A DNA stretch of 60,457 nucleotides from Xenococcus sp. PCC 7305. Lineage in GTDB: Bacteria > Cyanobacteriota > Cyanobacteriia > Cyanobacteriales > Xenococcaceae. The notes under the pieces are model-generated. The model was not told the DNA's origin. It did not search any database and was given only the letters and a program-made list of their open reading frames with translations. This document shows, piece after piece, positions 22,701 to 47,604 of this stretch. The stretch is from assembly GCF_000332055.1 (NCBI RefSeq), contig NZ_ALVZ01000215.1, positions 1 through 60,457 on the forward strand. The letters are read 5' to 3'. The first letter of the stretch is position 1. Every line of letters begins with the position of its first letter. The translations under genes and the position numbers were made by a program.

Positions 22701-25700
22701 CCACAACCTACAACGTTACTGTGGATTACACAAACGATACTGGTAGTAATGCTGCGATTATTGGGTGGATAGATTTTGATCAATCTGGAAGTTTTGATTC
22801 AGATGAACAAGTTAATGCCATTGTCTTCGATAGCATTTTAGATCAAAATACTACTTTAACTTGGGATTCTTTCCCTGGAATTATTAGCGGTACGACTTAT
22901 GCCCGCTTTCGTCTCAGTACGGATTATGCCAGCACTATTTTTTCTGAAGATTTTGATGATAGTGCTACTGGTTGGACTGTTAATCCCAATGGTACTGATA
23001 CTGCAACAGCTGATGCTCAGGGCCAATGGATTATTGCTGAGCCCGTCGCCCATGATCGATTTGGAGACGGGAATAATGAACAACTCGAAGCTAATAGTTC
23101 TCCTAATGCATTAGTTACTGGTTCTGGAGGCACTAACACAGATGTTGATGTTAGTGGTAGTGGTACTGATGGGGTGACAACCGTTGATTCTCCTGACTTC
23201 ACTTTACCTAGCACTGCTGGTTCAATTGAGTTAGAACTTGAGTATTATTTATCGGTTAGTGCGGCAAATGACGACAACTTTACTATCGAACTTCGTCAGA
23301 CTTCAGATGATACTCTTTTGTCAACTCTTTTAGATGAAACTCCTTCTGCTCAGCAAACTGGAACTTGGACTACATTTAACTCTTCTTTAAATGCTTTTGC
23401 AGGATCTACTGTTTATTTACGATTTATTGCTACAGATGTTGCCAACAATAGTGTTATTGAGGTTGGTGTTGATGATGTCAATGTAATATTACTGCCAGAC
23501 GCAACTATAGATTCAGTAGGTTCAGCTAGCGATGGTGAAGTAGAAGATTATTTAATCTTTATTGAAGGTGGCACTGATTTTGGTGATGCTACTAATTCTG
23601 GTGCTAATGATAGTTATGCATCGACCACAACTAGTCATAATATTGTTAGTGGACTAAACCTAGGAAGTATCATTGATAATGATACTTCTCCAACTGCTAA
23701 TGCAACTGCTGATGCAGATGATAACAATGGAACAGATGATGAAGATGGCGTCACCTTTAGCTCCAATCTTCAAACTACCGATACAACCTATAATGTTACC
23801 GTCGATGCAGTGAATACCACTGGTAGTGATGCCGAGTTGATTGGCTGGATTGATTTTGATCAAAATGGAGTATTTGACGCTGACGAAGCATCGGAAGTGC
23901 TTACTATTTCTGCTAGTGGGCAAGTAACTCTTAATTGGACGAATATTCCGGCTGGTACTCAAGTCGGTGATACCTACGCTCGTTTCCGACTTAATGACAA
24001 CCCAGGAAATCTTGATACTAATACTCCTACTGAAGCCTTAGATGGCGGGGAAGTCGAAGATTATTTGATTACTATAACCGCTACAGATTACGGTGATGCG
24101 CCTGATACAGGAACAGGAACAGGAACTGGTAACTACCAAACCACAGAAAATGATGATGGAGCGGCTCATATTATTGTTGCTGATTTGAGTATTGGTAGCA
24201 CTGCGGCAGATGCCGACGATGGAACATTACAAAATAATGCGGCAACTGCCGATAATAACGATGGCACAGATGATGAAGATGGGGTTGATTTCTCTGCTGT
24301 TGATAATCTCAGAGTAGTTGATAGTGCTTACAGTATAGATGTTGATGTCATCAATACCACAGGCAATGATGCAGTTTTGCTTGGTTGGATCGATTTCGAC
24401 CAATCTGGAACCTTTGATAGTGACGAAGCTGTTACCGCAACCTATTCTAGTAATGGCGGTGCTTTACAAACTCAAACCTTAACCTGGAACACTATTCCCT
24501 CCGATATCCTTCCGGGTACAACTTATGCTCGCTTCCGCATTAGTAATGACACCACAACTTTAACCACTAGCTATTCTACTGGTCTGCTCAGTAGTGGAGA
24601 AGTAGAAGATTATCAAATTACCATTGATGCAGCCGATTATGGCGATGCCCCGGATATTGCTTCGGGAACTAGTGCGGGAGACTATGCGACCACTGCTACT
24701 GATGATGGTGCAGCTCACGGAATTGATAACAATTTACGTCTCGGCGCTAATTTGGATGCCGATAGCGGAACCTTACAAAATGATGATGCCGATGCTGATG
24801 ATACCGATGGCAGTCCTGATGATGAGGATGGTGTCACCTCAACCTTAACTGATATTGCCACGGGAGATACTAGTTACAGCATTACCTTGGATGTATTTAA
24901 CGATACTGGCAGCGACGCAAAATTAATCGGCTGGATTGACTTCGATCGCTCGGGGACTTTTGATAGCGACGAAGCTGTGATTAGAACAATTCCTACCAGT
25001 GGGACTTCCAGTAGCCAAGCCCTGAGATGGGATACTAACGGTAACGGATTTACCTCTTCCGATATTAGTGAAGGCATAACCTACGCTCGTTTCCGCCTGA
25101 GCACAGATACGACCACTCTCACTACAAGTTATTCCACAGGAGCCTTAACCGATGGCGAAGTTGAAGACTATCAATTAAATATTATTGGGGTAGATTATGG
25201 GGATGCTCCTGATGACGGTTTTGTGGGGAATAGTGCTGGTGACTATCAAACTACAGAGGGAAACACTGGAGCAAGTCATATCATAGTTGATGATTTGTAT
25301 CTTGGTGGTTTAGTTGATGCGGATAATGGTACTTTAGAAGATCGAGATGCGATCGCAGATGACAATGACAATACCGACGATGAGGATGGAGTCACCTTTA
25401 ACAATATTCTCAATAAAAATGACACTAGCTATAGTGTTAATCTAGTCGTCACCAACGAAACTGGGAGTGATGCCAAATTAGTTGGCTGGATAGATTTCGA
25501 TCAAGATGGTGATTTTGAAGCTACCGAAGCTGTTACCCAAACCATATCTCATGCCATTGGCGGTCAAAATACGACCCTGGACTGGACTGGACTTTCAGGA
25601 ATTGTCGGCGGGACAACCTATGCGCGCTTCCGTCTCACAGCAGATGCGAGTCTTGATCTGGGAAATATTCAAAATAGTGACTCGATAGGTCAATTTGATA

Positions 25701-26704
25701 GTGGCGAAGTTGAAGACTATCAACTTCCTGTTCAAGGAGGAGTCGATTATGGTGATGCGCCGGATACGGTAGTTGGGGCCGTTGGTGTGGGCACTGGCAC
25801 AGGAGAATACAAAACAACTTTAGCTGATGGGGGAGCGAGTCATACTATTGTCAGTGATTTGTTTATTGGTGATCTAGTAGATGAAGATGATGGCATTTTG
25901 GAAGGAGTTGGCGCTGTTGCAGATGATAATAATGGCACCAACGACGAAGATGGGGTAAATTTCCTGGCGACTCTCGAAGCAGGAGACACTAGCTATAGTG
26001 TTACGGTTGATATCACCAATGATACGGGTAGCAATGCCACCTTGGTCGGTTGGATCGATTTTGATCAAGATGGTAATTTTGAAGCCACAGAAGTTGCAAC
26101 GGCAACAGTTGCTAGTAACAGCTCTGAGCAAACAGCAACTATTACCTGGAATAGTATTACTCCCACAGCCGGCGAAACCTATGCCCGCTTCCGTCTCAGC
26201 ACAGATTCGGCCCTCGATACTATTGAAGACTCTGACTCAATTGGTTTGCTCAGTGATGGCGAAGTGGAAGATTATCATGTCTGTGTGGTCAGTAGTGGCA
26301 AGGGAGGAACCGATGGAGCAGATCTCATCGTTGCTGATCCTGGTGGTAGTGTAATTGCTGGTTATAAAGGGCAAGATACTCTAACTGGTGGAGCTGGGGT
26401 TGATTCTTTCTGCTATAGCGAAACTAGTGATGGAGTTGACATTGTTAACGGATTTACTGTTGGGAGTGGTGGGGACCAGATTATTTTGACTCAAATATTA
26501 CGGGATGAGGTTGGCTACACAGGAACTGATGCGATCTCAGATGGTTATGTTGTACTGGTTGATTACGGCACTACGGGGACAATGGTACAAATTGATTTTG
26601 ATGGGACGGGTGATTTGTTCCCTAAAGATGTCGCTCTAGTGGTGGATACAGCCAATGCTGATATCAATGAAACGACCCTGGGAGCTAATAATCTAATTTT
26701 TTAG
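16760..26704 (+). CDS. Giant secreted surface protein: SdrD-like B domains, ten GEVED repeats, type I secretion-like C-terminus
   Basis: A 3314-residue predicted extracellular protein. Order: an N-terminal part without a Sec signal; an Ig-like segment (TVTTDKGDYSPGETAFIVGS, about 73-92); an SdrD-like B domain (SGTVFNDYDSDGVNDG); a central region of about 600 residues that may be a propeller; a second B domain (GNRIWDDANQDGIQ); ten GEVED repeats from residue 963 to about 3174; and a C-terminal domain with GGAGVDSFCYSETSDG like the targeting domain of type I-secreted proteins. Asp-rich DxDxDG stretches suggest calcium binding. The start is a TTG, since an in-frame TAG lies eight codons upstream and no early ATG exists. 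No type I secretion genes are in the window. An adhesive or structural role is inferred. Confidence 0.88.
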   Translation: MDNLLDSLAKGRFNLNFDFSGENSSKQDSLLQWVKTLDRGRIRSSRFGRKNQTFESSTNFLLAQENTTIQEATVTTDKGDYSPGETAFIVGSGFALGETVQLQVLHTDGRDNTRPEHQPWQITDGISSFDDAGNLVGDLDGIVDGNIETSWFVDPFDSLNSQFELTALGLDSGAIATTNFTDSYVISGTVFNDYDSDGVNDGTARGVGFASESGVEGITITAYNASEVVVGTATTGADGTYTLNINTDDPVRVEFTLPSGFVSTSLNTAPSSTVSDIAFASVAATMDLGIHRPHEVTSGDASSIQLITVCYVEGVGTGSGIVIHGYNDFDDQNQNAYTQKATVQEVGTVNGLAYHRESETLFAGSFYKRHSALLGTIDFTNDNNANADTNDATGAAYTSIIYTVDNSNANTTGNVSIFARLDDVVDPRGAIDSDAIGYSWESDQGTGQDTAGGNAVFDAVGKYGLGDLELSADGTTLWAVNLNDRKLYKVPVGDSADPLTPATPASADIDSYDLITDIINNGDDLGVNPEENIRPFALSIREGLVYFGMVNTAQYDADGNEGTPNGVGGVDDTTSASDLRAFVYTFDPENPTAAPVQVLDIPLDYERDLASSSAQLGAEEPSANWHPWVASFPTDTIAGTGEEAYTQPILSDIDFDINGNMLLGFRDRWGDQIGRQVNRPDGTGGSGFTGNSGGDLLVAILDPDTDTWTIETHVTTDNINGNNDPDGELFGNEFFENGGANDSNELHSESAQGGLTVVPGFTEVVTTAEDPIDAFAGGFEWFNTVDGSFAGHFAANGDSGLDIFDGTVADSLGKSNGLGDLEFIFAASDIEIGNRIWDDANQDGIQNADETNFDTNNSIEVELYDSSGTEIATTTTTNGEYYFSGLAPFTDYEIRLAASNFTSGAVLDGYLATIQNANSDGSDRIDSDATNNSGLPSITFTTGASGTNDYSFDFGLTNATTTDYGDAPDTTSGIGEGDYQTTAANTGASHTIVSGITIGSGISADDGTLQNGDATADSDDGVTFTSTLQTTDTSFSVDVDVNVTGSTTLVGWIDFDQSGTFDSDEAVSTTVSSNSTQTLTWNSFPGIIDGATYARFRLSTDGNLDTSYATGAASDGEVEDYLITVGLDYGDAPDASSGTGTGNYQTTSADTGASHGITTGLNIGSIVDPDNGTLQNTDADNDNTDGSDDEEGVTFATNLSLTDTTYSVDVDLTNSTGEDAIITGWIDFDQDGVFETSEAVVASIPNGNTDANVTLTWDDDTDNNAINDLSGNGDLPATILSGTTYARFRLSTNFTTTTESTTSPVTTTIYSEDFEGITDWRNDGSLNTGNTASGGDWAIGDPTQSTLGGTIMQPGDANGGTNALISDLSTADIDGGAITSRSDTFTLDSGSGSHSVNFFYFFSSFTSNVTDEITVDIVNSANTSDRANLFTDTVASDATQAAVWTEITQAIDSSFNGKTVYLEFTAQDGGSDDRVEAGVDDITVTYTEDVTVNVDVPDPLPSTGLLNDGEVEDYKINVAVDYGDAPDTSSGNGTGDYQTTRENDGASHTIDSDLSLGNNIDADDGTLQNTDATADDIDNTDDEDGVTFASNLEIDDTSYSVTLQVTNDKTVGSSATVVGWIDFDQDGIFESSEAVVATVPDNSTDATVTLTWDDNTGNNATSDLSGNGDLPATILSGTTYARFRLSTDGNLDSDFANGALSDGEVEDYKLTVGLDYGDARDTGVGTATGDYSTTANDNGPSHIIDSDLSIGSSVDADDGTLQNTGATADDDALNDGSTDDENGVTFSNTLRTDSTSYSVSVDIRNTTGDDAELIAWIDFDQSGTFDSDEAVTATFPSNGGTLQNQTLTWSSSSIPEDITDGDTYVRFRLSTDDTLDINYSTGQLSDGEVEDYEINIVGIDYADAPDVTVGETNPSPGEYATTLADGGASHIITDGLKLGATVDAENGTLQNTAATADDLDNNNDDDDEDGVTFSSTLDVSATTYNVTVDYTNDTGSNAAIIGWIDFDQSGSFDSDEQVNAIVFDSILDQNTTLTWDSFPGIISGTTYARFRLSTDYASTIFSEDFDDSATGWTVNPNGTDTATADAQGQWIIAEPVAHDRFGDGNNEQLEANSSPNALVTGSGGTNTDVDVSGSGTDGVTTVDSPDFTLPSTAGSIELELEYYLSVSAANDDNFTIELRQTSDDTLLSTLLDETPSAQQTGTWTTFNSSLNAFAGSTVYLRFIATDVANNSVIEVGVDDVNVILLPDATIDSVGSASDGEVEDYLIFIEGGTDFGDATNSGANDSYASTTTSHNIVSGLNLGSIIDNDTSPTANATADADDNNGTDDEDGVTFSSNLQTTDTTYNVTVDAVNTTGSDAELIGWIDFDQNGVFDADEASEVLTISASGQVTLNWTNIPAGTQVGDTYARFRLNDNPGNLDTNTPTEALDGGEVEDYLITITATDYGDAPDTGTGTGTGNYQTTENDDGAAHIIVADLSIGSTAADADDGTLQNNAATADNNDGTDDEDGVDFSAVDNLRVVDSAYSIDVDVINTTGNDAVLLGWIDFDQSGTFDSDEAVTATYSSNGGALQTQTLTWNTIPSDILPGTTYARFRISNDTTTLTTSYSTGLLSSGEVEDYQITIDAADYGDAPDIASGTSAGDYATTATDDGAAHGIDNNLRLGANLDADSGTLQNDDADADDTDGSPDDEDGVTSTLTDIATGDTSYSITLDVFNDTGSDAKLIGWIDFDRSGTFDSDEAVIRTIPTSGTSSSQALRWDTNGNGFTSSDISEGITYARFRLSTDTTTLTTSYSTGALTDGEVEDYQLNIIGVDYGDAPDDGFVGNSAGDYQTTEGNTGASHIIVDDLYLGGLVDADNGTLEDRDAIADDNDNTDDEDGVTFNNILNKNDTSYSVNLVVTNETGSDAKLVGWIDFDQDGDFEATEAVTQTISHAIGGQNTTLDWTGLSGIVGGTTYARFRLTADASLDLGNIQNSDSIGQFDSGEVEDYQLPVQGGVDYGDAPDTVVGAVGVGTGTGEYKTTLADGGASHTIVSDLFIGDLVDEDDGILEGVGAVADDNNGTNDEDGVNFLATLEAGDTSYSVTVDITNDTGSNATLVGWIDFDQDGNFEATEVATATVASNSSEQTATITWNSITPTAGETYARFRLSTDSALDTIEDSDSIGLLSDGEVEDYHVCVVSSGKGGTDGADLIVADPGGSVIAGYKGQDTLTGGAGVDSFCYSETSDGVDIVNGFTVGSGGDQIILTQILRDEVGYTGTDAISDGYVVLVDYGTTGTMVQIDFDGTGDLFPKDVALVVDTANADINETTLGANNLIF
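19646..26281 (+). repeat. Ten tandem GEVED-domain coding repeats
   Basis: Units start at 19646, 20141, 21320, 21902, 22457, 23576, 24086, 24635, 25193 and 25745, each opening with a DYGDAPD-like motif. They run through GASHxI, DDEDGVTF and WIDFDQxGxF to TYARFRLS and GEVEDY. Ordinary spacing is 495-582 bp. The second and fifth units are about 1.1-1.2 kb because each carries an extra beta-sandwich-like insert. Nucleotide similarity is high in the GWIDFDQ and DDEDGV blocks, so short-read assembly could collapse or expand this region. Confidence 0.92.
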
Positions 26705-35451: not shown

Positions 35452-36633
35452 TTATGAATTCATCAGTAGGTTGATTTTGCAGGCTGCATCAGAAATTATT
35501 GTGGCTGATATATCGATTTCTTGGTTAGTAGTAAATTTTCCTAATCCTATCCTTAGCGATCCTTCGATTAACTCATCTGGTAAATTTATCGCTCGCAAGA
35601 CATGAGAGGGAGCAGCAACTCCAGAAGAACATGCTGAGCCAGTGGAAATAGCTAAGCGATCGCGAATCCTAGCAATGATGGCACTATTAGGAATTGTGGG
35701 AATGGCAAGATGAAGGTTTCCAGCTAATCTAGAAGTTACATCACCATTAACAACTAGATTAGATATTTTTTCTTGGAGCAAATTTTGTAACTTGTCTCGT
35801 AGTATAGCGATCGCTGGTTCATCTTTTTCCATTTCTAACTGTCTTAATCGACAGGCTTCTCCCAAACCAACAATCCCAGGAACATTAAGTGTTCCCGATC
35901 TCAATCCTTTTTGATGCCCACCACCAAAAATAATTGGTTCTAAATGATGCCCTTTTCTCACAATTAACGCTCCTATTCCTTTGGGTGCATAGAATTTATG
36001 ACCAGAGATTGCTAGATAAGTAATTCCCCATTGTTCAAAATCGATTGGTATTTTGCCTGCTGCTTGGGAGGCATCACAAAGAAAAGGGATATTGTGTTTT
36101 TGAGCTATTTCACCAATTTCTTTAACTGGATAAATATTACCTATTTCGTTGTTGGCTGCCATAACGCATAATAGTGAAAGCCCTTGTTGGCAGACTTGTT
36201 CGAGATATTCTAAGTCTAATCTGCCTTTTGAATCGACCTGAAGACTAATAAGATCGGCTGATCCTTTCTTCGCGATCTCCTGACAAGTATCTAATACTGC
36301 TTTATGTTCGAGTGGGGAAAAAGCAATGCGAGGTTTATTAGGGTTATCAAGATGCTTGATTATAGTTCCTTGGATAGCCAAGTTAATGCTTTCTGTTGCC
36401 CCAGAGGTAAAAATTACTTCTCTTGCGGATGCACCAACTAACTTAGCAACTTGATTGCGTGCTTGAGAGACAGCATTTGCTGCTTCATCGCCGTAGATAT
36501 GGTCTGTACTGCTAGCATTGCCAAATGCGGTTGTCATATAATACAGCATTAGATCGGCAACTCTTGGATCGATGGGAGTAGTAGCATGATAATCGAGATA
36601 AATTGGAGAATTATTGGAAGACTTGGAATTCAT
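35452..36633 (-). CDS. Cysteine desulfurase (IscS/NifS/DndA class)
   Basis: PLP enzyme that takes sulfur from cysteine and passes it on as a persulfide. The 393-residue protein has HATTPIDPRVADLM at the N-terminus, the PLP lysine in ISGHKFYAPKGIGAL and the catalytic loop cysteine in STGSACSSGVAAPSHVL. It lies 35 bases after the broken PLD gene, at the 3' end of the phosphorothioation-like cluster on the same strand. It could thus be the SspA/DndA-type sulfur donor, though it could equally serve Fe-S clusters or tRNA thiolation; sequence alone does not decide. Confidence 0.93.
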   Translation of the reverse strand: MNSKSSNNSPIYLDYHATTPIDPRVADLMLYYMTTAFGNASSTDHIYGDEAANAVSQARNQVAKLVGASAREVIFTSGATESINLAIQGTIIKHLDNPNKPRIAFSPLEHKAVLDTCQEIAKKGSADLISLQVDSKGRLDLEYLEQVCQQGLSLLCVMAANNEIGNIYPVKEIGEIAQKHNIPFLCDASQAAGKIPIDFEQWGITYLAISGHKFYAPKGIGALIVRKGHHLEPIIFGGGHQKGLRSGTLNVPGIVGLGEACRLRQLEMEKDEPAIAILRDKLQNLLQEKISNLVVNGDVTSRLAGNLHLAIPTIPNSAIIARIRDRLAISTGSACSSGVAAPSHVLRAINLPDELIEGSLRIGLGKFTTNQEIDISATIISDAACKINLLMNS

Positions 36634-36668: not shown

Positions 36669-37621
36669 TTATGTTTTGATTCGATAGAAAACTTCTGAAT
36701 AGTTGGGTACAGATAAAGCATAACGATTGGGAAGAAAATAAAGTAACCAGCGCATCAAGGTTTGCCAGGCTCGTTCGGCATCGAAATAGAGAATAGTAGC
36801 GCAAGGTAGAGAATTTAAGAAATCTCTTACTGCACCAAATCTTTGTGGAAATTTAACAAAACTGTCAACTTTCTGGATAATTGGCTTCTGGAGTAAAAGA
36901 GTCCCGATGTAAGCCTTGAATACCTTTTGAGATAAGTTAGGAATAATTGAGAGCGATCGCAAGTCAGTTGAAGCAGCTATTTTTGAAGCAGAAGTTAATT
37001 TTTCTGTCTGTCCGCAATAAGCCAAATACAAATCTTCTGGATTGCGGAGAGTTGGCAACCAAGTATTTACGTTAATTAAATCCTGAGTAGTTAAGTTACT
37101 TTCTAAAAATTCTAATTTTGATGAATTACTGGCTACTAAATTAGAAGTTTGTTCCGCTAATAGTTTCACAGCAAGAGACATTTGCTCGAATAAATCTTCA
37201 GTTACTGGGATACAAGCTTTTAATAACTCAATCTCAAAACTCTTGATCGTTGGTTCATTGGCTGATAAAGCTACTAAAAGCTCTAAATTAGCGCAATCTG
37301 ACCAACCCAAAGCTTTACCTGTTAAATTAGCCGAACCTACCAAACAGCAATCATCTGCTCGATAATATTTAGCGTGTAGATCGGGTCTTAACCATAGAGA
37401 TGAATTAGGACGCTTTTTAATCAAAGACCATACTTCTAGATCGCTGACACCTGTTATTATTTCATCGGGAAACCAACGGGTAATACACTACACTTTAGAG
37501 AAACATCAAGAGATATTTCTGTCAGTAGTCTCTCAAGCACAGGAGCTTTGATAAAAGGAGCAACAAGTAATATTTCATTGCGGGCTTCTGCACAAAGCTT
37601 GGATAATTCTGTTCCTAACAT
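36669..37621 (-). pseudogene. PLD-family (HKD) nuclease gene, frameshifted by a 5-bp duplication
   Basis: The minus-strand frame starts MLGTELSKLCAEARNEILLV at 37621 and stops after about 54 codons. The rest continues in another frame as ITRWFPDEIITGVSDLEVWS and then IKKRPNSSLWLRPDLHAKYY to 36669. The break is a tandem GTGTA GTGTA (plus strand TACACTACAC at 37484-37493); removing one copy restores one frame of about 315 codons. The HKD motif (HAKYYRADDCCLVGSANLT) is intact. Proteins of this size usually act as dimeric PLD nucleases. It lies 15 bases after the GHKL ATPase gene, in the same operon. A downstream start could still make a 251-residue fragment containing the HKD motif. Confidence 0.85.
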
Positions 37622-37636
37622 TAAAGACAATTTTAG

Positions 37637-39412
37637 CTATTCTTCACGCTCTAAAAATTGTCGCGCAATTCTGCCCCAGTCAACACGAGCATCTTGAGTA
37701 TCTTGTCGTCTTTTACCTTTAGGTTGCTCGTCCTCATAACGTGCCCAAGCCGCAAGTAAGAGTTTTAGCCCCTTAAGAGAATTAGTTAAACGAGATCGCA
37801 ATGTTTCTGTATCTACGTTGTCTACTTCATCTTCTAGAATCTCTACTAAATTCTCATAGGCTGGATGTTTGGTATTGAAAGTAATAACAATTGCTCCACC
37901 TTTTGGTTTAACTGAGAAAAAAGCGGGATTATCTAAATCGGCATCGACAAATACGTATTTTAGATTATCAGAAATAGTGGTTGCAGCTAATTCCTTGGCC
38001 TGATTTTCGGTTACTCCTGCCTCAGTTAAGGTTTTTTCGATAGTTGTTTGTCTTTCCAAAGCGGGAAGGTATTCATCTTTATCGCTTGTACCTTTGTACC
38101 CATCTTGTTTGCGATTTTCGGTGACTCTGGTAGCCTGCTTTTCGGGGCTAGAACCTGGGCAGCGATTATTTTTGGTTCGAGTTCCTTTTCTTTGAGCTTT
38201 AATTAATTTACGAAGAGTGCTTAATTGAGTATTTATTTTGATGGCAATTTCCAACAAAGGTTCTCTGGGATCTTCGTCCTCTTTTAACTCCTCTTTAAAC
38301 TGAACGATGCTTTTGCCACCTTGAAGCATGGATTCAATATCAATGTTAATCAACTCTGCAAAGTTACGAGCGGATTGTTTGTTGTTGGTTACGCCAAAGA
38401 GATCGTCAAGAGAAGGAGGGAATTCGACTTCAATACCCCACCAGCGTTCGGTAGGATCGTATTTAATGACTAACGACTGGTCTAAATCTAATTCTCTACC
38501 AGCACGTACCACCGATACCCCAATGTTTTTTGCTGCGTGTTTACCATGAGGTAAATCGCCAGGATTTTTGTTACCAGATGCTTGACGAGCTTCTTCTTTG
38601 GCATAGGAAAAACGGACTTTGACTTCGTGTTGGCGATCACGAAAATCAATAGTAAAAACGGCTTCATATTGACCTGCTTCTTCCCAAGGTTGAAACATTG
38701 ATTGTTTACCAAAGGGTGCAGGGCAAGAAGTGTTTGCCATTAAATAGCCAGGGTCATTAGGTTTAGCAGATTTTTCTTCAATAACTGTGTTTGGATTTTC
38801 TAAATCAAAAGCCAACATTCGGATCGCGACTTCTCCTGCGTCGAGAAATTTGCGGTACATTCTGCCGATGAGGAGTTCGGAATTATCAATAATAGTTTTG
38901 CCCGTCTTCCACATACAGCGATCAATATCTGACCAAACCACTAATGTTCCACTGTGATCGAAATTTTTGCCTACCTGTTGCCAGATACTAGGAATTGGTT
39001 TTGGCTGGGGTTCGGGAACTTCGTTAATGTGTTGCGTTTTAATTTCATTGAGGTCTAGATAGCTATAGAAAGCATTTTCTACTCCATACTGCCAAGTCCA
39101 AACTTCGACTCTTTGACATTGGGAAACAGATGAAGAGGGCAAACCCATACCAAAGCGTCCAATTCCCGTATGTTTTTCTTCTTGCAAATGCGTTCCATTG
39201 CCAAACTGGAGAGCTAGACGCAACACTGTCGCATCCATTCCACTACCGTTATCGAGGACTGCTATTTGATGAATACGCGATCGCATTCTCGATCCTACTT
39301 GCTGTTTTTTCTCTCCGCACAATAATTCAACAGTTTTAGCACCAGCTTGTATAGAATTATCCATTAGTTCGGCAAGTGCATAAGCTGCATTTTTATAGCC
39401 GTTGTCTCGCAT
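37637..39412 (-). CDS. MORC-like GHKL ATPase of the defence cluster
   Basis: A 591-residue ATPase counted from the ATG. The Bergerat fold shows ELMDNSIQAGA (Glu15, Asn19), VLDNGSGMD (Asp54) and GIGRFGMGLPSSS (83-95), as in Hsp90, MutL and MORC proteins. A middle domain and a long charged C-terminal part follow. Prokaryotic MORC-type GHKL ATPases are known from restriction-like operons, where they are thought to act as ATP-driven DNA clamps. The codons before the ATG read IPAHLAVQA back to a stop at 39442-39440, and this looks like conserved protein, so translation may start at the ATT at 39439. It lies between the DisA-N gene and the PLD gene. Confidence 0.85.
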   Translation of the reverse strand: MRDNGYKNAAYALAELMDNSIQAGAKTVELLCGEKKQQVGSRMRSRIHQIAVLDNGSGMDATVLRLALQFGNGTHLQEEKHTGIGRFGMGLPSSSVSQCQRVEVWTWQYGVENAFYSYLDLNEIKTQHINEVPEPQPKPIPSIWQQVGKNFDHSGTLVVWSDIDRCMWKTGKTIIDNSELLIGRMYRKFLDAGEVAIRMLAFDLENPNTVIEEKSAKPNDPGYLMANTSCPAPFGKQSMFQPWEEAGQYEAVFTIDFRDRQHEVKVRFSYAKEEARQASGNKNPGDLPHGKHAAKNIGVSVVRAGRELDLDQSLVIKYDPTERWWGIEVEFPPSLDDLFGVTNNKQSARNFAELINIDIESMLQGGKSIVQFKEELKEDEDPREPLLEIAIKINTQLSTLRKLIKAQRKGTRTKNNRCPGSSPEKQATRVTENRKQDGYKGTSDKDEYLPALERQTTIEKTLTEAGVTENQAKELAATTISDNLKYVFVDADLDNPAFFSVKPKGGAIVITFNTKHPAYENLVEILEDEVDNVDTETLRSRLTNSLKGLKLLLAAWARYEDEQPKGKRRQDTQDARVDWGRIARQFLEREE

Positions 39413-39458: not shown

Positions 39459-40619
39459 TCAAATTTTTTTCACTAAATGCGCAATTAGCTGATAGCATTT
39501 ACTGGCAGCAATTTGCGTATTACAAAGAGGACATTCCTCTGTTTCACGCTCTCTCCAACCATATATAAAAATTTCATTAACGATAGAAGTTTTTCCACAC
39601 TTGGGACAAATAACTTCCCATGAATCCTCAACAACAACGTTTCTGTCAGATGACAATGAGCGGTAACTCTCCGCAATGATATTAGTATCAATATATAACT
39701 CAGTTACCTTTAATCCATCAGAAAAAATTGATACGGGTCCGTCGCTAGATACCGTAAAAATTATTGATTCGGCACAATCGTAAGAAAATCGTCGAGCAGA
39801 AGTATGGCGAGTGCCAGAATAAGGTTGAATTAGCTGTATACTTTTTTCTGATTGTTGAAGATGCGCACCAACACCAAACACTTCCCCATCTGGTGACATT
39901 AATGCTGCACCGTCGTTTCTCTCAAGAATGGATTGAAGTGCATAAAGATTTTGAGAGGCTAGCAAATTCATTTGTAGAGACTGAGTGTCTATTTGTGGTT
40001 TTGCTGCTGCCAAAATAGTTGCATTCGGTTCGCGAAGAAACCAGACTATCGTTGCTCCAGTTTTATTAGCACTAAGTGAATAAAAACAGAATTCCAAAAT
40101 TTTACAAAGATCTTGGTAATTAATCATTGATGCCGAACGTTGAATTATCCTGGCAGTGCTAGAAATATTAGGTTTAGTTCTCCAGTTTCTTAGTTCGTGG
40201 ATTGCAATACCATTTTTAGAGAAGAATCGGGTAATGCCATTAGAATCGGTAATCCCAACAATTCCACTAAGACTTTTTTGAAAGCTTACTAGAGAATATT
40301 CTGTTTCTAGAGGTTGCGACAGTATCAAGAGTCCCGAATACTGATTGGCTTCAACAACAACAAATATGTTTTTACCATCAGCAAGACTACGTGCTTTATC
40401 AATCGCAATCTCTTCAGAAGAAACTAGTGTGAAATTCTGCACATTTTTTAAATTTTCGACTGATACAAAACCATAAGTTATCACTTGCCCTTCGTGTTGA
40501 TGTGGGCGCAATAAATAGTCTGCTTCGCAAAGAAATTGATTGTCATTTTGGTATTCTCCTACTGGCACTCTTGCTTTATTTAATTCTTCGTGCAAGTGCT
40601 TGAATTTTAGATCAACCAT
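39459..40619 (-). CDS. DisA-N (diadenylate cyclase-like) protein with C-terminal zinc ribbon
   Basis: A 386-residue protein. Residues about 215-310 carry diadenylate cyclase hallmarks: NDGAALMSPDGEVFGVGAHL with the DGA motif at 236-238, and GTRHTSARR (269-277) matching the GTRHRxA motif of DisA/CdaA, followed by IIFTVSSDGPVSIFSDG. The N-terminal part (1-210) is not recognised. The C-terminus has a zinc ribbon (CPKC 338-341, CPLC 363-366). It may make c-di-AMP or a related nucleotide on activation. It is encoded between the SspD-like and MORC-like genes. The third residue of the usual RHR is Thr, so activity is not certain. Confidence 0.8.
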   Translation of the reverse strand: MVDLKFKHLHEELNKARVPVGEYQNDNQFLCEADYLLRPHQHEGQVITYGFVSVENLKNVQNFTLVSSEEIAIDKARSLADGKNIFVVVEANQYSGLLILSQPLETEYSLVSFQKSLSGIVGITDSNGITRFFSKNGIAIHELRNWRTKPNISSTARIIQRSASMINYQDLCKILEFCFYSLSANKTGATIVWFLREPNATILAAAKPQIDTQSLQMNLLASQNLYALQSILERNDGAALMSPDGEVFGVGAHLQQSEKSIQLIQPYSGTRHTSARRFSYDCAESIIFTVSSDGPVSIFSDGLKVTELYIDTNIIAESYRSLSSDRNVVVEDSWEVICPKCGKTSIVNEIFIYGWRERETEECPLCNTQIAASKCYQLIAHLVKKI

Positions 40620-40712: not shown

Positions 40713-41519
40713 CTATAAATGACAAGCTAAACAGGGCAAACCATCATCCTCGTCATCTAAGACTGCCTCTAAAGCTTCTGCTAAAGGACGATTAGGAGCA
40801 GCTTTTTTAGTCCTGTTCATTGCTTTTTCATGATTGGCAATAATTTCATCTTTTCGTGCTAAAAGTTCTTGTAATGTTTCTCCTTGTGTCCAGGTATAAG
40901 TTCGACCATCAGCATGATTTTGCTCGTATTCAATTGCTTTAGCAAATAAATCGGGATGTTCTTGTGCCAGCATCACCCATTCGTACTTACGCTGGAAGAA
41001 GCAGAAGAAACAGCCAGAACGACTCCGCCAGCGATAGTAGTCTGGTAGCCCAATGCCACTATCCTCTAGCAAGCGGATAATATCGGCTTTGACTAATCCT
41101 CTTTCCTTAAAGGGAAATACGGGTTTGATGTTGGGTTTGGTGGACATATAGCCATCACGATTTTCATCAGCACGAATGCCAATATAACTAATTGCTTCGT
41201 CATTGCCCACAAATTCTTCAAAAGGCTTTATTTTCATTTTGATAGTACACCACCGCATTTGAGGTGAAGGTAGCAGACCATCATGAAGAGCTAACCAATG
41301 ATCGAAGCCTCTTTTTTCACTTAAATAGTTTATTTTGATGCCCAAACGAGCCTTGATACGGTCTAAGTATTCGTAGGTTTCGGGTAATTCTTTATGGGTG
41401 TCGCAAAAAAAGTATTCCATGTCGGGAATTTCCTTATGCAGCAAAATTGCCAAGGCGGTAGAATCTTTCCCTCCTGAAATACCTAAAACTTTTCTTACTT
41501 TATTATTAACTTTAGCCAT
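40713..41519 (-). CDS. sspD: SspD/DndC-like PP-loop sulfurtransferase (PAPS-reductase family)
   Basis: A 268-residue protein with the PP-loop SGGKDS (15-20) of ATP pyrophosphatases and the PAPS-reductase-like segments FFCDTHKELPETYEYL, MRWCTIKMKIKPFE and IGIRADENRDGY. It also has cysteine pairs (SGCFFCF and LPCLACHL) suitable for an Fe-S cluster, as in DndC. In Ssp/Dnd systems this subunit activates DNA for sulfur insertion into the backbone. It is shorter than DndC, which fits SspD. It lies ten bases after the HNH gene and in the cluster with DUF4007 and ATPase genes, which supports phosphorothioation rather than sulfate assimilation. Confidence 0.82.
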   Translation of the reverse strand: MAKVNNKVRKVLGISGGKDSTALAILLHKEIPDMEYFFCDTHKELPETYEYLDRIKARLGIKINYLSEKRGFDHWLALHDGLLPSPQMRWCTIKMKIKPFEEFVGNDEAISYIGIRADENRDGYMSTKPNIKPVFPFKERGLVKADIIRLLEDSGIGLPDYYRWRSRSGCFFCFFQRKYEWVMLAQEHPDLFAKAIEYEQNHADGRTYTWTQGETLQELLARKDEIIANHEKAMNRTKKAAPNRPLAEALEAVLDDEDDGLPCLACHL

Positions 41520-41529
41520 TAGAATATTT

Positions 41530-42903
41530 TTACTTGTAAACCCAATTTTGATTAAAACCTTGAATTTGGGCCAGAGAAGTCAAAGGCTTAATTGTTTTAA
41601 TATAAGCATTACTAATAATATTCAAGTCGAGTAAATCATCTGGTTGAGATACTTTCAATTCTGCGACATAATCTTCTACACAGTTAAGCCATTTTTTTCT
41701 TGAATTATTCTGAGCATAAATTACTAAGCCTTGATGCTGTAATTTGACAAAATCTTGAAAATACTTTTCGGCAGGAATATTATTGGACTTAGAAGAATTT
41801 ACAGATTGAGTTGTAGGAATTAAATTCCATAATTGATCGTGGGCTACAAAAGACCAAGGTAAGTAATGATCTAATGAAATTTTATCCTTGTCTAATTCGA
41901 CTTGAGAATAAATACATTTTAGTTTTTGGTGATTTAAAATTAGCTTCCAGTATTTACTTTGCTTACTTAAGGAATCTCTATTATGTGGAATAAATAATTT
42001 GCTGACTATATTAGGAATATTAATGTTTTTTGCTTGCATATAATTCAACCATTCCCAAGACACCCAGCCTCTAACAATAGAATAATTTTCAGCAATATAC
42101 TCTATCCAGTCTTGATGCAAGATAATCGCTGTACAGTCTTTATATGAATCCGAATCAAAATAATATAATGGTTTGATTTCTTCAAAATTATTATTAGATA
42201 ACTTACATATACTTGGATTTACATGATAATCTTTGATTCCTTTAATTTCGCGAGCAAAAAACGGTCTTATCAAACGAAATGGGACATACCTACCAATATC
42301 TTTCACAATATCATCAAGGCTTTGGCTTTGAATTGTTTTTCGTAACTGCTTTTTATCTGAATCTCGAAATTGTAATATTGGTTCGCTAATTACTAATTCA
42401 AGAGAATCTAGTTTATTTGCAATCTGGTCTTGTATCCCAAAAGACAATTTAAAATAGTTATGCGGATACCAAGCATTAGCTAGCATCTCGATAACAATTT
42501 CCTGAAACGTAATGGGTGATAAAGTATCAAAGTTTCTTCTTCTGAGAATATCTAAAAGCGAAAAAAAGAAAAGATATTTATAAGAATTAGTTGTTTTATC
42601 AAAGATTTGAGACAAAACCGAAACGTTAACTCGATCTGATGGCGGTAAATCTTGACTGAACGTTGTATTAACTGTTCGTGCCAAATCGCCTAAATAAGCT
42701 TGTACAAAATCTTGGGCAGCAGATTTATTGATTACTTGTAAGGCTTGGACAATTTGCACCACTGTTTCCGCTGTTGGATCTGTCTGTTCATGATACCAAC
42801 GGAAAACAATTGGGCGTTCTACACCCAAGCCTGTTGCTAATGTACTTTGGTTTATTTTGTAGCTTTCTAATACCGATCTCAGTGCTTGACCTGCTTTACC
42901 CAT
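41530..42903 (-). CDS. HTH (XRE-like)-HNH endonuclease fusion protein
   Basis: A 457-residue protein. The N-terminal 60 residues form a Cro/XRE-type helix-turn-helix (INQSTLATGLGVERPIVFRW). A middle region of about 250 residues is unknown. The C-terminal HNH nuclease motif is visible: Cys330 in KCIYSQVELDKDKISLDHYL, Asp345-His346, and LWNLIPTTQSVNSSKS with Asn369 and Lys372. A role as effector nuclease, autoregulator, or both is inferred. It heads the downstream run of genes. It lacks the DUF262 domain of SspE, so it is not SspE. Confidence 0.8.
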   Translation of the reverse strand: MGKAGQALRSVLESYKINQSTLATGLGVERPIVFRWYHEQTDPTAETVVQIVQALQVINKSAAQDFVQAYLGDLARTVNTTFSQDLPPSDRVNVSVLSQIFDKTTNSYKYLFFFSLLDILRRRNFDTLSPITFQEIVIEMLANAWYPHNYFKLSFGIQDQIANKLDSLELVISEPILQFRDSDKKQLRKTIQSQSLDDIVKDIGRYVPFRLIRPFFAREIKGIKDYHVNPSICKLSNNNFEEIKPLYYFDSDSYKDCTAIILHQDWIEYIAENYSIVRGWVSWEWLNYMQAKNINIPNIVSKLFIPHNRDSLSKQSKYWKLILNHQKLKCIYSQVELDKDKISLDHYLPWSFVAHDQLWNLIPTTQSVNSSKSNNIPAEKYFQDFVKLQHQGLVIYAQNNSRKKWLNCVEDYVAELKVSQPDDLLDLNIISNAYIKTIKPLTSLAQIQGFNQNWVYK

Positions 42904-43002: not shown

Positions 43003-43959
43003 ATGACGCAATCATTCCACTGCCTAGTTTGTTCTAAAAAAGTAGAGCCTAATTCAGTACATCATGCTTGTCATCGTACTTGTGGAAGTCCAGAATGTCA
43101 GGCCATCTACAAAAAGCGTTCTATTGCCAAAGCGGATCTCCGTCGCCAACGCAACCGAATCGAACAACTAAAAGAGCAAGGTTTTGATTTGGTAACTTGT
43201 GCTGTGTGCGAACAACAATTTGAGATGATTGGTTACAACCACCTAAAAACACATGGGCTGACGACTAAAGAATACAAACAACTTTATCCCGACCTCCCCG
43301 TAATTAATTCGCGGATAAAAGCACAAAGAGGAAAAGAGGCAATAAAGCGATCTCGCTATTTGAACTACAATGGGAAGAAGCCAGACAAAAAGCTATACGA
43401 ATTTTTAACTGGTTGTCTAATAGGCGATGGTCATCTTGAAAAACGTTCTAGTCGGCGAAATGCTAGATATGCGGAGGGTGGTAGCAATCAGAAATATTTG
43501 GAATGGAAATATAAGTTTATTAGTCAATATTTTTCTTGTTCTTTTGAAGAGCGTACATCTTCGCCTCACACAAAAACAGGTAAACAATATCAAGCTTGGT
43601 GGTTGCGAACTAAAGTACATCCATTCCTTACAGAACTACATTCACAATGGTATTCAGATAGAAAAATCATTGCTAGAAAAATGACAACTGAATACCTAAC
43701 AGAATTTGCTCTAATTGTTTGGTTTTGCGATGATGGTTGCTCTAGTGGTGCAGTTAGTTTTTATACTCATGCCTATTCCTATAACGAAGTAGAATTTCTA
43801 GCTCAATTGCTTGAATCTCGATTCGATCTACACGGAAGTATTTTAAAAAATAACAAGAATCATTTTTTTATCCGACTCAATGCTGATTCAAAACGGAAAT
43901 TTAGTGAAATAGTGGCTAAATTTTCAATTCCTGGGATGGAATATAAATTAGATTTTTGA
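43003..43959 (+). CDS. LAGLIDADG homing endonuclease with zinc-finger and ROS/MucR-like segment
   Basis: A 318-residue protein. N-terminal cysteine/histidine motifs (CLVCSKK, HHACHRTCGSPEC) and a C2H2-like segment (CAVCEQQF with HLKTH, residues 66-84) resemble ROS/MucR zinc-binding proteins. The nuclease core has two LAGLIDADG-type motifs: FLTGCLIGDGHL around 134-145 and EFALIVWFCDDGC near 240. It is free-standing with its own ATG and stop, on the strand opposite to the cluster. It looks like a mobile homing endonuclease gene inserted between the SspC-like region and the HNH gene. Confidence 0.87.
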   Translation: MTQSFHCLVCSKKVEPNSVHHACHRTCGSPECQAIYKKRSIAKADLRRQRNRIEQLKEQGFDLVTCAVCEQQFEMIGYNHLKTHGLTTKEYKQLYPDLPVINSRIKAQRGKEAIKRSRYLNYNGKKPDKKLYEFLTGCLIGDGHLEKRSSRRNARYAEGGSNQKYLEWKYKFISQYFSCSFEERTSSPHTKTGKQYQAWWLRTKVHPFLTELHSQWYSDRKIIARKMTTEYLTEFALIVWFCDDGCSSGAVSFYTHAYSYNEVEFLAQLLESRFDLHGSILKNNKNHFFIRLNADSKRKFSEIVAKFSIPGMEYKLDF

Positions 43960-43989: not shown

Positions 43990-44275
43990 TTACTCATCTT
44001 CACTCCAAGATGAAGGCATGGGGATGTCATCCCAATCTATTTCTTGACTGATATCGGGCATAAGCTCATCAGCTCCAAGAACTTTGTTGATGATTGCTTG
44101 AGCCTCTTTAGGTGGCAAGGAGTTTAACTTTCTTCTGGCTTCAATTTTGGCTTGTTCTAATGAATTGTCCAAGTTATTTTTTAGCGATTTTAATATGGCA
44201 TTTCTCTCTATTTTATCTTTAACTGTGGCGATCGCTTGACAACTTAAATTATGAACTAGATTTTTTAATTCTCTC
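43990..44275 (-). pseudogene. Possible C-terminal remnant of the SspC-like ATPase
   Basis: After the SspC-like frame stops at 44276, a different minus frame reads REILV-type sequence (VKRELKNLVHNLSCQAIATV onward) to a tidy acidic C-terminus DDIPMPSSWSEDE at 43990. Upstream of the stop the same frame is only a shadow of the ATPase, so this segment has no start of its own. It may be the true end of the ATPase after a frameshift or deletion, or the tail of a lost gene. Homologue comparison would settle which. Confidence 0.45.
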
Positions 44276-46672
44276 TTAACTAGGATTTGCCGGGGTTTGA
44301 CAAAGTCGATCCAAAGTTTGGGGCTTATCTTTAGCAGCCAAACAGAACTCATCAATAGCTTGCCATAGCGTCCATACTCCCGATTTTTCCTTTGGAGGAT
44401 AAATATCCCAGAATTCATCTTCCTCTCTGTGAATTTTAGTTTCTCCAAGAAGAGAATGATACATGGTAACTTCGGGACCATATCCTTCTAATCCTAGTTT
44501 TTCTAGGTCGGAATGTTCGATTATGGCTTCAATCAACTCCCGTCTGGCTTTAGCTCCTTGGGAGGTAAGCTGACGACGATTAATTAGTTCGTTCCAAATT
44601 TTTGGACTCTTATGATAGATGCGATCGCATACTGCTGAAAGCTGGGAATTAAATTCAGTAATATTTTTGATTTTTATCTGTTTTCCTTCAATCCAGCAAT
44701 CGTTTTTGTCATTTGTCAGTTCAAAAGAATCTTGAAGGGACTCATATAGTAATTGCTCCGCTTCAGCAACTCGGTAACGTACTTCTCTTCTAGCAACACC
44801 ATCAGTTTGCAATTCAGAAGCGTTTTGCTGAATTTTTTTTAAGGCTGCATATTCTCTAGCCTGCATCCGCAAAGATTCTAGTTCAGCAGCACATAGGATT
44901 ATTAAAGGCTTATTATCAGCAGTTAAATTTGGGACTAATTTTGGTTTTTCATCGTCAACCCAGTAACCAATAAGTCCATCACTTTCGGCAGCAGAACACA
45001 ATAAATTCTTCAAACTAGCAGAACTATCGAGATAACAACGTTCAAAATAACGCAATGTACCTGTTTGATAGCTGTGACGTTGAGCTACTAATGGTTTCAA
45101 AGGTCTAATCGATGACAATAATTTGAATAATGGATCACGATTCTCCTCTCGATATCGGATTAACTCGTTATCTACATTGAAGTCAGAACCTTGCCAAATA
45201 CGAAGTTCGTTTAATTGACGACGGTGGGTGATTAAGCCTTTTTCTAGTAACTCGCCAATTACTCGATCCCAAGATTCAATTTCTTTGGTATCGCCAGGGC
45301 GATCGCACATTGCAAACTTAACTAATTCGCGGGAAGCTCTGGTTAAACCAGTAAAAGTTACTAAATTTAAAATACCAATAGTTTTTAGGACTCTCAGAAT
45401 ATCTAGATCGAGATATTTGGCATCAGCAATCAAATCCTGAATTTCCACCCATCTTTGCATATTAGAACGAGATACTAACCCCATTCCTGCTGCTTCAATA
45501 AAATAGTCATATACTCGATCTAGCTTGAGAGAGGGTAATTTATCTGCTTCAACCGAAACTTCTTTTAGATAATTATTAAAAGAATATGGTTCGGAGCTAG
45601 TGAGAAAAGTAAACAAAGAGCGATCGTTTTGCGCAAATCGTTGACATAAAGTTGGTAGAACCAGGGCTGTAAGGGGATGTAGGGGATATACTTGCTCTAA
45701 AACTTCGACATCCAATTCTTCTCGCTTAAAAATATTATCTAAACGAGTAAACCATTCTTGAGCTTGATTCTGCAAGGCACAGGCATGAGAATCCGTACTG
45801 GTGTGCTTGATCGCCCGACCGATTAACCGCATCATTTGTCCTGCGGATTCGGTAAAGGGAATATCTTCAAATCGCCCCTGGACTTTCGACCATTCATTAC
45901 GCTGAATAGAAGCTAATCTCTGACTATAATCAGCAAAAGCCTGGTGCAGAATTCCCAGAATATAAATAGGATGTTTGTCGTCTCTGGGAAGTTCTGCTAG
46001 TTGTTGTAAGAGATATAAATCTTCAGCACCGCGATCGCTAGCAGCATATTCTAAGTTTTTGCCTAATTCATCAATAATTAGGAAAATTCCTGTTTTAGAA
46101 GCTTTGGCTAGTTCTTTCACTAAGGTGGGAATTTCCTTACCATCAATTTTGTTGCCTTGCTCTATTCCTGCTGCTAGCTGCTGTAATTTAGATACTGCGT
46201 CAATCTTCTTCCGTTGTGTAGTAGTCCAAAATGTTTCTGTACCCCGAAGTAAAGCCCGAATAATAGTGTTGCTAATTGGCTCTCTTTGCGCTACTGCAAC
46301 TGCTCGAAAATAACCTTGTTTGGGAATGGATGATTCTAAAGCCTGATACTCATCACTTTCAACACCTAAAGCTGTTTGAGTCATTTCCCAGGAAAGCGAT
46401 CTCATTTTACTTTTGGGAGGAGCAGATAAAGAAGCTAAGTAATGAGCAAAGGCAGATTTACCCGTTCCATAAACACTAGTTAGAGTCCAAGAATTACTCG
46501 TTCCCTCTTTGATTCCAGATAAAACTCGTCTGAGGGCATCCACTGATCTTTCTGTCAGAATATAACCTTCTAAAGCATTAGGTTGTTCTAAATCCCTTTC
46601 CAAATTGACAGAACGAGAATAGCGACGTTTGACACTAAAAACATCAGCAAGTGTATTAGCCATATTTGCCAT
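44276..46672 (-). CDS. sspC: SspC-like P-loop ATPase, possibly truncated
   Basis: A 798-residue ATPase with Walker A GTGKS (69-73, in SVYGTGKSAFAHYL) and Walker B-like GIFLIIDELGKNLEYA near 210. Long helical regions follow, with no transmembrane segments. It is the large NTPase always encoded next to DUF4007 genes in SspBCD-type loci; SspC couples ATP use to PT modification. The ATG follows the SspB stop by two bases, with AGGAGA inside the SspB end, so the two are translationally coupled. The end (QTLDRLCQTPANPS then stop) is abrupt. See the remnant at 43990-44275. Confidence 0.75.
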   Translation of the reverse strand: MANMANTLADVFSVKRRYSRSVNLERDLEQPNALEGYILTERSVDALRRVLSGIKEGTSNSWTLTSVYGTGKSAFAHYLASLSAPPKSKMRSLSWEMTQTALGVESDEYQALESSIPKQGYFRAVAVAQREPISNTIIRALLRGTETFWTTTQRKKIDAVSKLQQLAAGIEQGNKIDGKEIPTLVKELAKASKTGIFLIIDELGKNLEYAASDRGAEDLYLLQQLAELPRDDKHPIYILGILHQAFADYSQRLASIQRNEWSKVQGRFEDIPFTESAGQMMRLIGRAIKHTSTDSHACALQNQAQEWFTRLDNIFKREELDVEVLEQVYPLHPLTALVLPTLCQRFAQNDRSLFTFLTSSEPYSFNNYLKEVSVEADKLPSLKLDRVYDYFIEAAGMGLVSRSNMQRWVEIQDLIADAKYLDLDILRVLKTIGILNLVTFTGLTRASRELVKFAMCDRPGDTKEIESWDRVIGELLEKGLITHRRQLNELRIWQGSDFNVDNELIRYREENRDPLFKLLSSIRPLKPLVAQRHSYQTGTLRYFERCYLDSSASLKNLLCSAAESDGLIGYWVDDEKPKLVPNLTADNKPLIILCAAELESLRMQAREYAALKKIQQNASELQTDGVARREVRYRVAEAEQLLYESLQDSFELTNDKNDCWIEGKQIKIKNITEFNSQLSAVCDRIYHKSPKIWNELINRRQLTSQGAKARRELIEAIIEHSDLEKLGLEGYGPEVTMYHSLLGETKIHREEDEFWDIYPPKEKSGVWTLWQAIDEFCLAAKDKPQTLDRLCQTPANPS

Positions 46673-46674
46673 TA

Positions 46675-47604
46675 TTATTCTCCTGTGCGTCTGAACTGAT
46701 AATACTCATTTAGAATATCTTCTGCTAACTGTTTTGGATCGCTTTTAAAAGAAAATTGAATCAATCCAGCCGTATCAGAAAGATCTAATTCATTGTGACT
46801 GCGAACTACTTTTTCAATCGCCTCACAAAGAACGTTCTCCGAAAGCTTGAAAGCCATACCGGGACTGCCAGAATCGTAAACCAGACGAGATATAGCGATC
46901 GTTTTAGCAGTTCCACTCATCCAACTTGCATATTCCAAACAAGCAGCCACCACAATTGCCGCAGGTAAATTGGCTTTTGCTCCAGTTTTAAAACTATATT
47001 TACCTCCCAAATTTTGAATAAGTCCTAACTGCTGAAAAGGACTGTCAATTGAATCCTCTAAGAAACTAGTATTTCTTTCTTCCGAACCATACATCCGCAA
47101 AATACAGGAAATATCTTTTTTTAGGGAAGATTCAACTACTTGCTTTTTGAAAGTATGTTGCCACTCATTCAATTCATGGAGTAATTCATCGGTAGTGAAC
47201 TCAACTTTCTTAAATTCAAAGAACGTAAAATACCAAGCAGCGGCTTTACAAGTAGGTTTCAGCAGATTCCAATGCAATAACCACAGAGAGGCTGGATCTT
47301 CAAGAAACGAATCCCAACCACCATCGGCAAAAAGCTGATGTCCAAACTCACTAGAACGATCTTCTCCCAAAACTTTGAAAGTTTTACACCAGTATCGAAT
47401 AGAGCGTACCATATTTTTCCCGACTCCTAAACGAATCGGCGCATCTTCACTCTGAAAAATACCTGAGTCTTTGGCTACAAGGTCAAACCCTTTCTTTAGC
47501 CAGCCAAATCTTAGATGAAAAGTTTCATGGCGAGCAAAAATAGGTTCTACTAGATTAGTCTGAATAAAATCTTGTTTTGTACCAGAAATGGTTAGCTGTT
47601 TCAT
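46675..47604 (-). CDS. sspB: DUF4007 protein, SspB-like
   Basis: A 309-residue protein with the DUF4007 start ARHETFHLRFGWLKKGFDLV and GVGKNMVRSIRYWC. Later it has AAIVVAACLEYASWMSG and LAEDILNEYYQFRRTGE. DUF4007 is the domain of SspB, described as a DNA nicking enzyme of SspABCD phosphorothioation. It is the first gene of the cluster (leftward), so a promoter is expected in 47605-47904. With the SspC- and SspD-like genes it gives the minimal SspBCD set. Confidence 0.85.
   Translation of the reverse strand: MKQLTISGTKQDFIQTNLVEPIFARHETFHLRFGWLKKGFDLVAKDSGIFQSEDAPIRLGVGKNMVRSIRYWCKTFKVLGEDRSSEFGHQLFADGGWDSFLEDPASLWLLHWNLLKPTCKAAAWYFTFFEFKKVEFTTDELLHELNEWQHTFKKQVVESSLKKDISCILRMYGSEERNTSFLEDSIDSPFQQLGLIQNLGGKYSFKTGAKANLPAAIVVAACLEYASWMSGTAKTIAISRLVYDSGSPGMAFKLSENVLCEAIEKVVRSHNELDLSDTAGLIQFSFKSDPKQLAEDILNEYYQFRRTGE

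Follow-up and report, generated by a model that had tools for sequence, protein, structure and literature searches.

Does a gene for a probable diadenylate cyclase that lies among DNA phosphorothioation genes belong to them, as the source of a nucleotide signal, or is it a stranger in their midst? The question is raised by a gene at 39459-40619, on the minus strand of the window, that is, the whole 60,457-nucleotide stretch of Xenococcus sp. PCC 7305 DNA that was analysed. A preliminary description, made from the letters of this DNA, had proposed a DisA-N-type cyclase domain with a zinc ribbon inside a phosphorothioation cluster, and signalling by c-di-AMP or another dinucleotide as the trigger of the DNA-modification locus. 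Literature searches joining phosphorothioation with diadenylate cyclase, and DACNK with diadenylate cyclase, found no paper in the collection searched. Reference 54 of PMC13092281, from 2023, deals with the domain architectures of DAC proteins and may already describe the neighbourhoods of the DACNK family. For the Dnd systems, which are not Ssp, passages of a 2024 survey state that none encodes an enzyme that generates signalling nucleotides (PMC10853773).

The open reading frame is intact, starts with ATG, spans exactly 39459-40619 and encodes a protein of 386 amino acids (P0001), which Pfam and a three-protein alignment describe as a DACNK-DAC-zinc ribbon protein and probable diadenylate cyclase. 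Residues 180-302 match Pfam DAC (PF02457; E 5.7e-11, 42.5 bits against a cut-off of 27) over profile positions 5-117 of 119, effectively the full length, and are preceded at residues 8-150 by a match to Pfam DACNK (PF21753; E 1.3e-50, 171.4 bits against a cut-off of 27) that covers profile positions 1-146 of 146. With both domains well over their cut-offs, the DAC call of the preliminary description was borne out. Its view that the N-terminal 210 residues are unknown needs one correction: most of the region, residues 8-150, is DACNK, labelled by Pfam as a 'probable sensor domain', hence it is not wholly unknown. The motifs had been placed correctly, D236-G237-A238 and G269-T-R-H-T-S-A275, and the C-terminal ribbon does comprise four cysteines (C338/C341/C363/C366); because zinc-ribbon-like Pfam matches at the C-terminus fall below cut-off, the ribbon call rests on the cysteines themselves. 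By domain and motif content P0001 is confirmed as a real DACNK-type DAC-family protein, like the DACNK-type diadenylate cyclases (PF21753 plus PF02457) in its full-length DACNK and DAC domains, its DGA and its GTRHTSA, and it differs from its two homologues in location, with nothing else found to set it apart.

Those two homologues are found in a genome of the same order (G1416, 66% identity) and in a second genome (G551, 34% identity). In the three-protein alignment NDGA, GTRHTSARRFSYD, DGPVSIFSDG and all four ribbon cysteines are invariant, and the suggested check on conservation of DGA and RHxSA in homologues was passed by both. The RHR motif itself is kept in P0001 as R271-H272 with Thr273 in third place, and Thr occupies that place in all three proteins. 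This rules out the Arg-to-Thr change as a mutation of the window copy and makes RHT in place of RHR a trait of the family, as far as it has been seen. Against G1416 the window gene has a dN/dS of about 0.13, a value that is rough because dS is high (1.9), which on the codon comparison shows the gene to be under purifying selection and suggests that the protein has been kept functional; for the comparison with G551, saturation of the synonymous sites leaves no usable ratio.

P0001 shares with CdaA and DisA a DAC domain, DGA and the GTRH motif, whereas the third residue of RHR, present in those enzymes, is here Thr, followed by Ser. The architectures also differ, CdaA being a membrane protein and DisA having an HhH domain according to passages of PMC8573169 and PMC3328451, while P0001 has an N-terminal DACNK domain and a C-terminal zinc ribbon. 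The other DAC of the same genome is a canonical CdaA with GTRHRAA. A profile comparison of the P0001 family with this CdaA aligned DGA with DGA and GTRHTSA with GTRHRAA at E 0.002, with a probability of only 13.8%. Profile searches of the PDB pointed the same way: diadenylate cyclases made up five of the six sequences listed at E up to 10 with a three-sequence profile (best E 0.045) and six of six with two homologous proteins (E 0.045 or worse). These matches are not significant one by one, and the predicted DAC fold rests on Pfam. An AlphaFold2 model of P0001 from single-sequence input had a mean pLDDT of 33.3, too low for any use in judging the fold. For M. tuberculosis DacA, passages of PMC3328451 report that changing the whole of RHR to AAA abolishes ATP binding and activity and that G73A in DGA retains activity; passages of a paper on H. 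volcanii DacZ stress DGA, and the term RHR is absent from those passages (PMC6741144). Formation of c-di-AMP requires two DAC domains head to head (PMC8573169, in part). With Thr as the third residue of RHR, what we claim for P0001 is a DAC-family protein; an active c-di-AMP synthase, with its catalysis, product and sensing, we only infer. Two DAC domains brought head to head would most likely join two ATP molecules to form c-di-AMP, and the DACNK domain and C-terminal zinc ribbon probably sense a ligand or hold the oligomer.

DACNK is a rare family, as judged from overlapping genome samples. It was found in one of 60 relatives and in one of 386 genomes of the window's phylum (its own genome in both cases), in two of 152 genomes of its order, its own included, and in one of 247 genomes in the phylum of a Pontibacter genome and one of 195 in the class of that match, the same genome. 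There were no matches among 17 genomes with a related GHKL locus or among 299 in the phylum of a Ramlibacter genome, and none over cut-off among 249 in the phylum of a Planococcus genome. Fourteen control genomes gave no match, and because these controls never matched, and the searches of 17 and 299 genomes were positive nowhere, the zeros do not prove absence. A Bacillota match (L095) was dropped as a DACNK candidate: it scored 19.2 bits, under the cut-off, over profile positions 18-59 of 146, in an open frame of 202 amino acids. Searched with P0001 itself, the 386 genomes of the phylum returned its own genome only. In plasmids and phages, tblastn of P0001 gave no useful match (with E up to 10, four weak plasmid matches only) and tblastn of the Bacteroidota homologue P0002 gave nothing useful; the same was true of viral contigs searched with P0001 and with A2, and of genome contigs scanned with a single protein. 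When viral contigs were scanned for DNA motifs, a single match came up (L096), whose frame on our own reading is antisense to a putative terminase gene, and which led no further.

The neighbourhoods of the two homologues are of a different kind. In G1416 a phage-type integrase gene is found one gene away from the DAC, and more distant parts of the contig hold DUF3987 and UvrD-helicase genes; in G551 its neighbours are histidine kinase and amine oxidase genes. By tblastn with an ssp reference set, ssp genes stand beside neither of the two homologue DACs, and in one homologue neighbourhood (L098) the sole match to that set is a generic helicase. The DAC side of this linkage test is thin, because there are only two outside homologues and the contig of one, G1416, breaks off 1.1 kb past the DAC on the side opposite the integrase gene.

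It is clear that the window gene, by comparison, does stand in a phosphorothioation cluster, as the preliminary description had held: PADLOC names SspB, SspC, SspD and SspA/DndA. The minus-strand order is SspB, SspC, a protein with HNH and HTH domains, SspD, the DAC, a GHKL ATPase, a PLD protein and SspA. SspB (46675-47604, minus strand) is an intact DUF4007 protein (DUF4007 E 6.6e-101; PADLOC SspB E 8.4e-123), and SspC (44276-46672, minus strand; named by PADLOC) is truncated. SspD (40713-41519, minus strand; PADLOC SspD E 2.5e-114), like a PP-loop sulfurtransferase, is intact and has a dN/dS of 0.04 against the related locus L014 over 203 codons. The DAC gene follows 93 bases after sspD, and 46 bases separate it from the first Met of the GHKL open reading frame (37637-39412, minus strand), which encodes an MzaB-like ATPase (HATPase_c_3 E 6.2e-23; MzaB E 1.2e-16) with 70% identity to a Trichormus protein and has lost its usual start. 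Beyond it are a PLD-family gene (36672-37621, minus strand), split by a frameshift near 37490 into two tblastn pieces in two frames, and the intact SspA/DndA cysteine desulfurase (35452-36633, minus strand; PADLOC DndA E 2.8e-141, SspA E 7.9e-140). The HTH and HNH_4 protein (41530-42903, minus strand; HNH_4 E 1.6e-10) is 57-58% identical to HNH proteins of Geminocystis and HL-69; its HNH_4 domain is Cas9-like and it has relatives in other cyanobacterial ssp loci. A LAGLIDADG homing endonuclease gene (43003-43959, plus strand; LAGLIDADG_2 E 1.9e-36) lies on the opposite strand between the SspC and HNH genes, beside the cut end of sspC. The G+C content of the DAC gene, 0.371, is like that of its neighbours (0.32-0.41); it does not mark the gene as a newcomer, and to a slight degree it speaks against recent acquisition from a foreign source. 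Scans for repeats and promoters in the surrounding DNA gave nothing informative. Elsewhere in the window, 16760-26704 encodes a protein of 3314 amino acids in which eight stretches match GEVED and two match SdrD_B.

Several parts of the phosphorothioation locus are damaged. SspC matches residues 1-793 of the 1170 of a Planktothrix protein and ends there, so that sspA, B, C and D are not all intact; of 53 SspC relatives that have the N-terminus, 48 extend beyond residue 1000 and the other five reach 865-936. Within the window there is no convincing remnant of the C-terminal third (Planktothrix SspC beyond about residue 793), and a 163-amino-acid open reading frame at 43990-44481 was rejected as such a remnant for lack of a convincing match to Planktothrix SspC past that point. 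SspC is also broken into two open reading frames in the plasmid loci of Geminocystis and Cyanobacterium HL-69, where both parts are present. The PLD gene has five extra bases relative to L014 and is split over two frames. The remnant of the GHKL start lies directly 3' of the DAC stop codon, where the ATG of the relatives is lost and five bases are missing relative to L014; the open reading frame now opens at an internal conserved Met, with only nine codons between a stop and that Met, while among all 76 motif hits in the related loci, which are pattern hits and not one per locus, none has fewer than 12 open codons there. A helicase is absent from the window, and the only helicase match in its genome has 29% identity over residues 258-499 of 539. 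GHKL dN/dS is 0.067 between the window and the related locus L013 and 0.078 between L013 and L014, no higher in the window, which implies that the decay is recent or that the gene still works, and with SspB, SspD, SspA and the DAC intact and collinear a working remnant system is possible. At L013:9950-12607 GHKL and PLD are fused in one frame of 885 amino acids in which the GHKL part is cut short at its end, so that decay is not confined to the window.

Whether the cyclase recurs in such company was examined in 86 related loci (L006-L011 and L013-L092), comprising six plasmid loci and 80 genome-contig loci (the best 80 of 205 GHKL relatives), many of them cut by contig ends. SspB, SspC or SspD is present in 70 of the 86. 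No DAC was found in any of them by tblastn of P0001 at E 1e-3, some loci being cut by contig ends. A small DAC profile, made from one CdaA and two DACNK proteins and so liable to miss a very divergent DAC, gave none at E 1 either. What stands directly before GHKL in 84 of 86 (a match within 300 bp of the GHKL match) is a helicase; the window has the DAC there. Of the two exceptions, the L016 contig ends 0.6 kb before GHKL, and in L013 the helicase is 6.3 kb upstream, with a TPR-CHAT protein and two other genes between helicase and GHKL at L013:3831-9930. The helicase of the related loci has partial similarity to PbeA (E 2.7e-27). In 42 of the 86 loci sspD and the helicase share a strand, with sspD in the upstream position and a gap of 300 bp or less in 17 and of 0.9-8.9 kb in 25, and the interval can hold, for example, a DndB-like gene, an ORC-CDC6-like ATPase, GmrSD_N or toxin-antitoxin genes. 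SspABCD genes are often accompanied, across several phyla, by a ResIII/DEAD helicase, a GHKL ATPase and a PLD protein. This helicase-GHKL-PLD set may be a further phosphorothioation partner module, different from both SspE and SspFGH as passages of PMC8092258 describe them, SspFGH consisting there of a Walker A protein, a protein of unknown function and an FtsK-like protein. Among the ten locus proteins scanned PADLOC named no SspE, SspF, SspG or SspH. The window locus thus resembles SspABCD with SspE or SspFGH (PMC8092258, in part) in its SspA, B, C and D genes and differs in its truncated SspC, its GHKL and PLD partners and its lost helicase.

These comparisons weigh against the cyclase as trigger of the DNA-modification locus: there is no DAC in the 86 loci, both homologues have other neighbours, and the DAC junction is damaged. 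As a main explanation the trigger reading is rejected: the sample holds no second case of the linkage, and the locus itself carries lesions. A specific form of it, in which the DAC took over the helicase's role in a remodelled Ssp-GHKL module, such that unmodified or damaged DNA is sensed and a c-di-AMP (or other dinucleotide) alarm is raised, would account for a gene that is collinear and closely spaced (93 bases after sspD, 46 before the first GHKL Met), is under purifying selection and is flanked by intact sspB, sspD and sspA; yet it is a single case, with a DAC in none of the 86 related loci, and with sspC truncated, the PLD gene split and the usual GHKL start lost we regard it as very improbable. 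That the arrangement is an artefact of assembly or sequencing seems to us extremely improbable: the draft genome is in 234 contigs and the PLD gene is thrown out of frame by a short, five-base insertion, but the DAC-flanking genes are close to their relatives (SspD 93%, GHKL 85-91% amino-acid identity) and in the same order and strand.

Another possibility is that the DAC functions in defence, alone or with host factors and independently of phosphorothioation, and that the ssp locus serves it as a hot spot for accessory defence genes. The stretch between sspD and helicase is variable (25 of 42 gaps of 0.9-8.9 kb) and is often filled with other genes, which makes such a role plausible, and in DS-2, which combines CBASS with a DAC and so shares with the window a DAC in a defence-gene setting, the DAC beside CBASS is needed for defence according to passages of PMC13092281. 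In DS-2, however, there are a cGAS-like enzyme and a phospholipase effector, neither of which was recognised beside the window DAC; among the window genes scanned, which are a subset, no cGAS-like enzyme with an effector beside the DAC and no cyclic-dinucleotide effector gene was recognised. Moreover P0001 and both homologues lack a PADLOC match, and P0001 scores negligibly against the model of the DS-2 cyclase (E 0.063, 11.6 bits). On balance a hot-spot role is rather unlikely.

The reading that we prefer is that a DACNK-type cyclase gene is lodged in a decaying ssp locus as a passenger, and is not part of an alarm triggered through phosphorothioation; with the DAC in the helicase's place and several other lesions in the locus, this is probably the case. 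A rare DAC gene, probably moving horizontally on its own, would have taken the place of the helicase gene between sspD and GHKL; we infer both that it is mobile and the sequence in which insertion and decay took place.

If true, a link between DAC and ssp genes would tie nucleotide second messengers to DNA phosphorothioation. The comparison shows instead how one eye-catching neighbourhood can come about when a gene lands in a locus that is decaying. What usefully remains is a DACNK family with GTRHTSARRFSYD replacing RHR in P0001 and both homologues, present beside a canonical CdaA in one genome, the product and trigger of which are directly testable.
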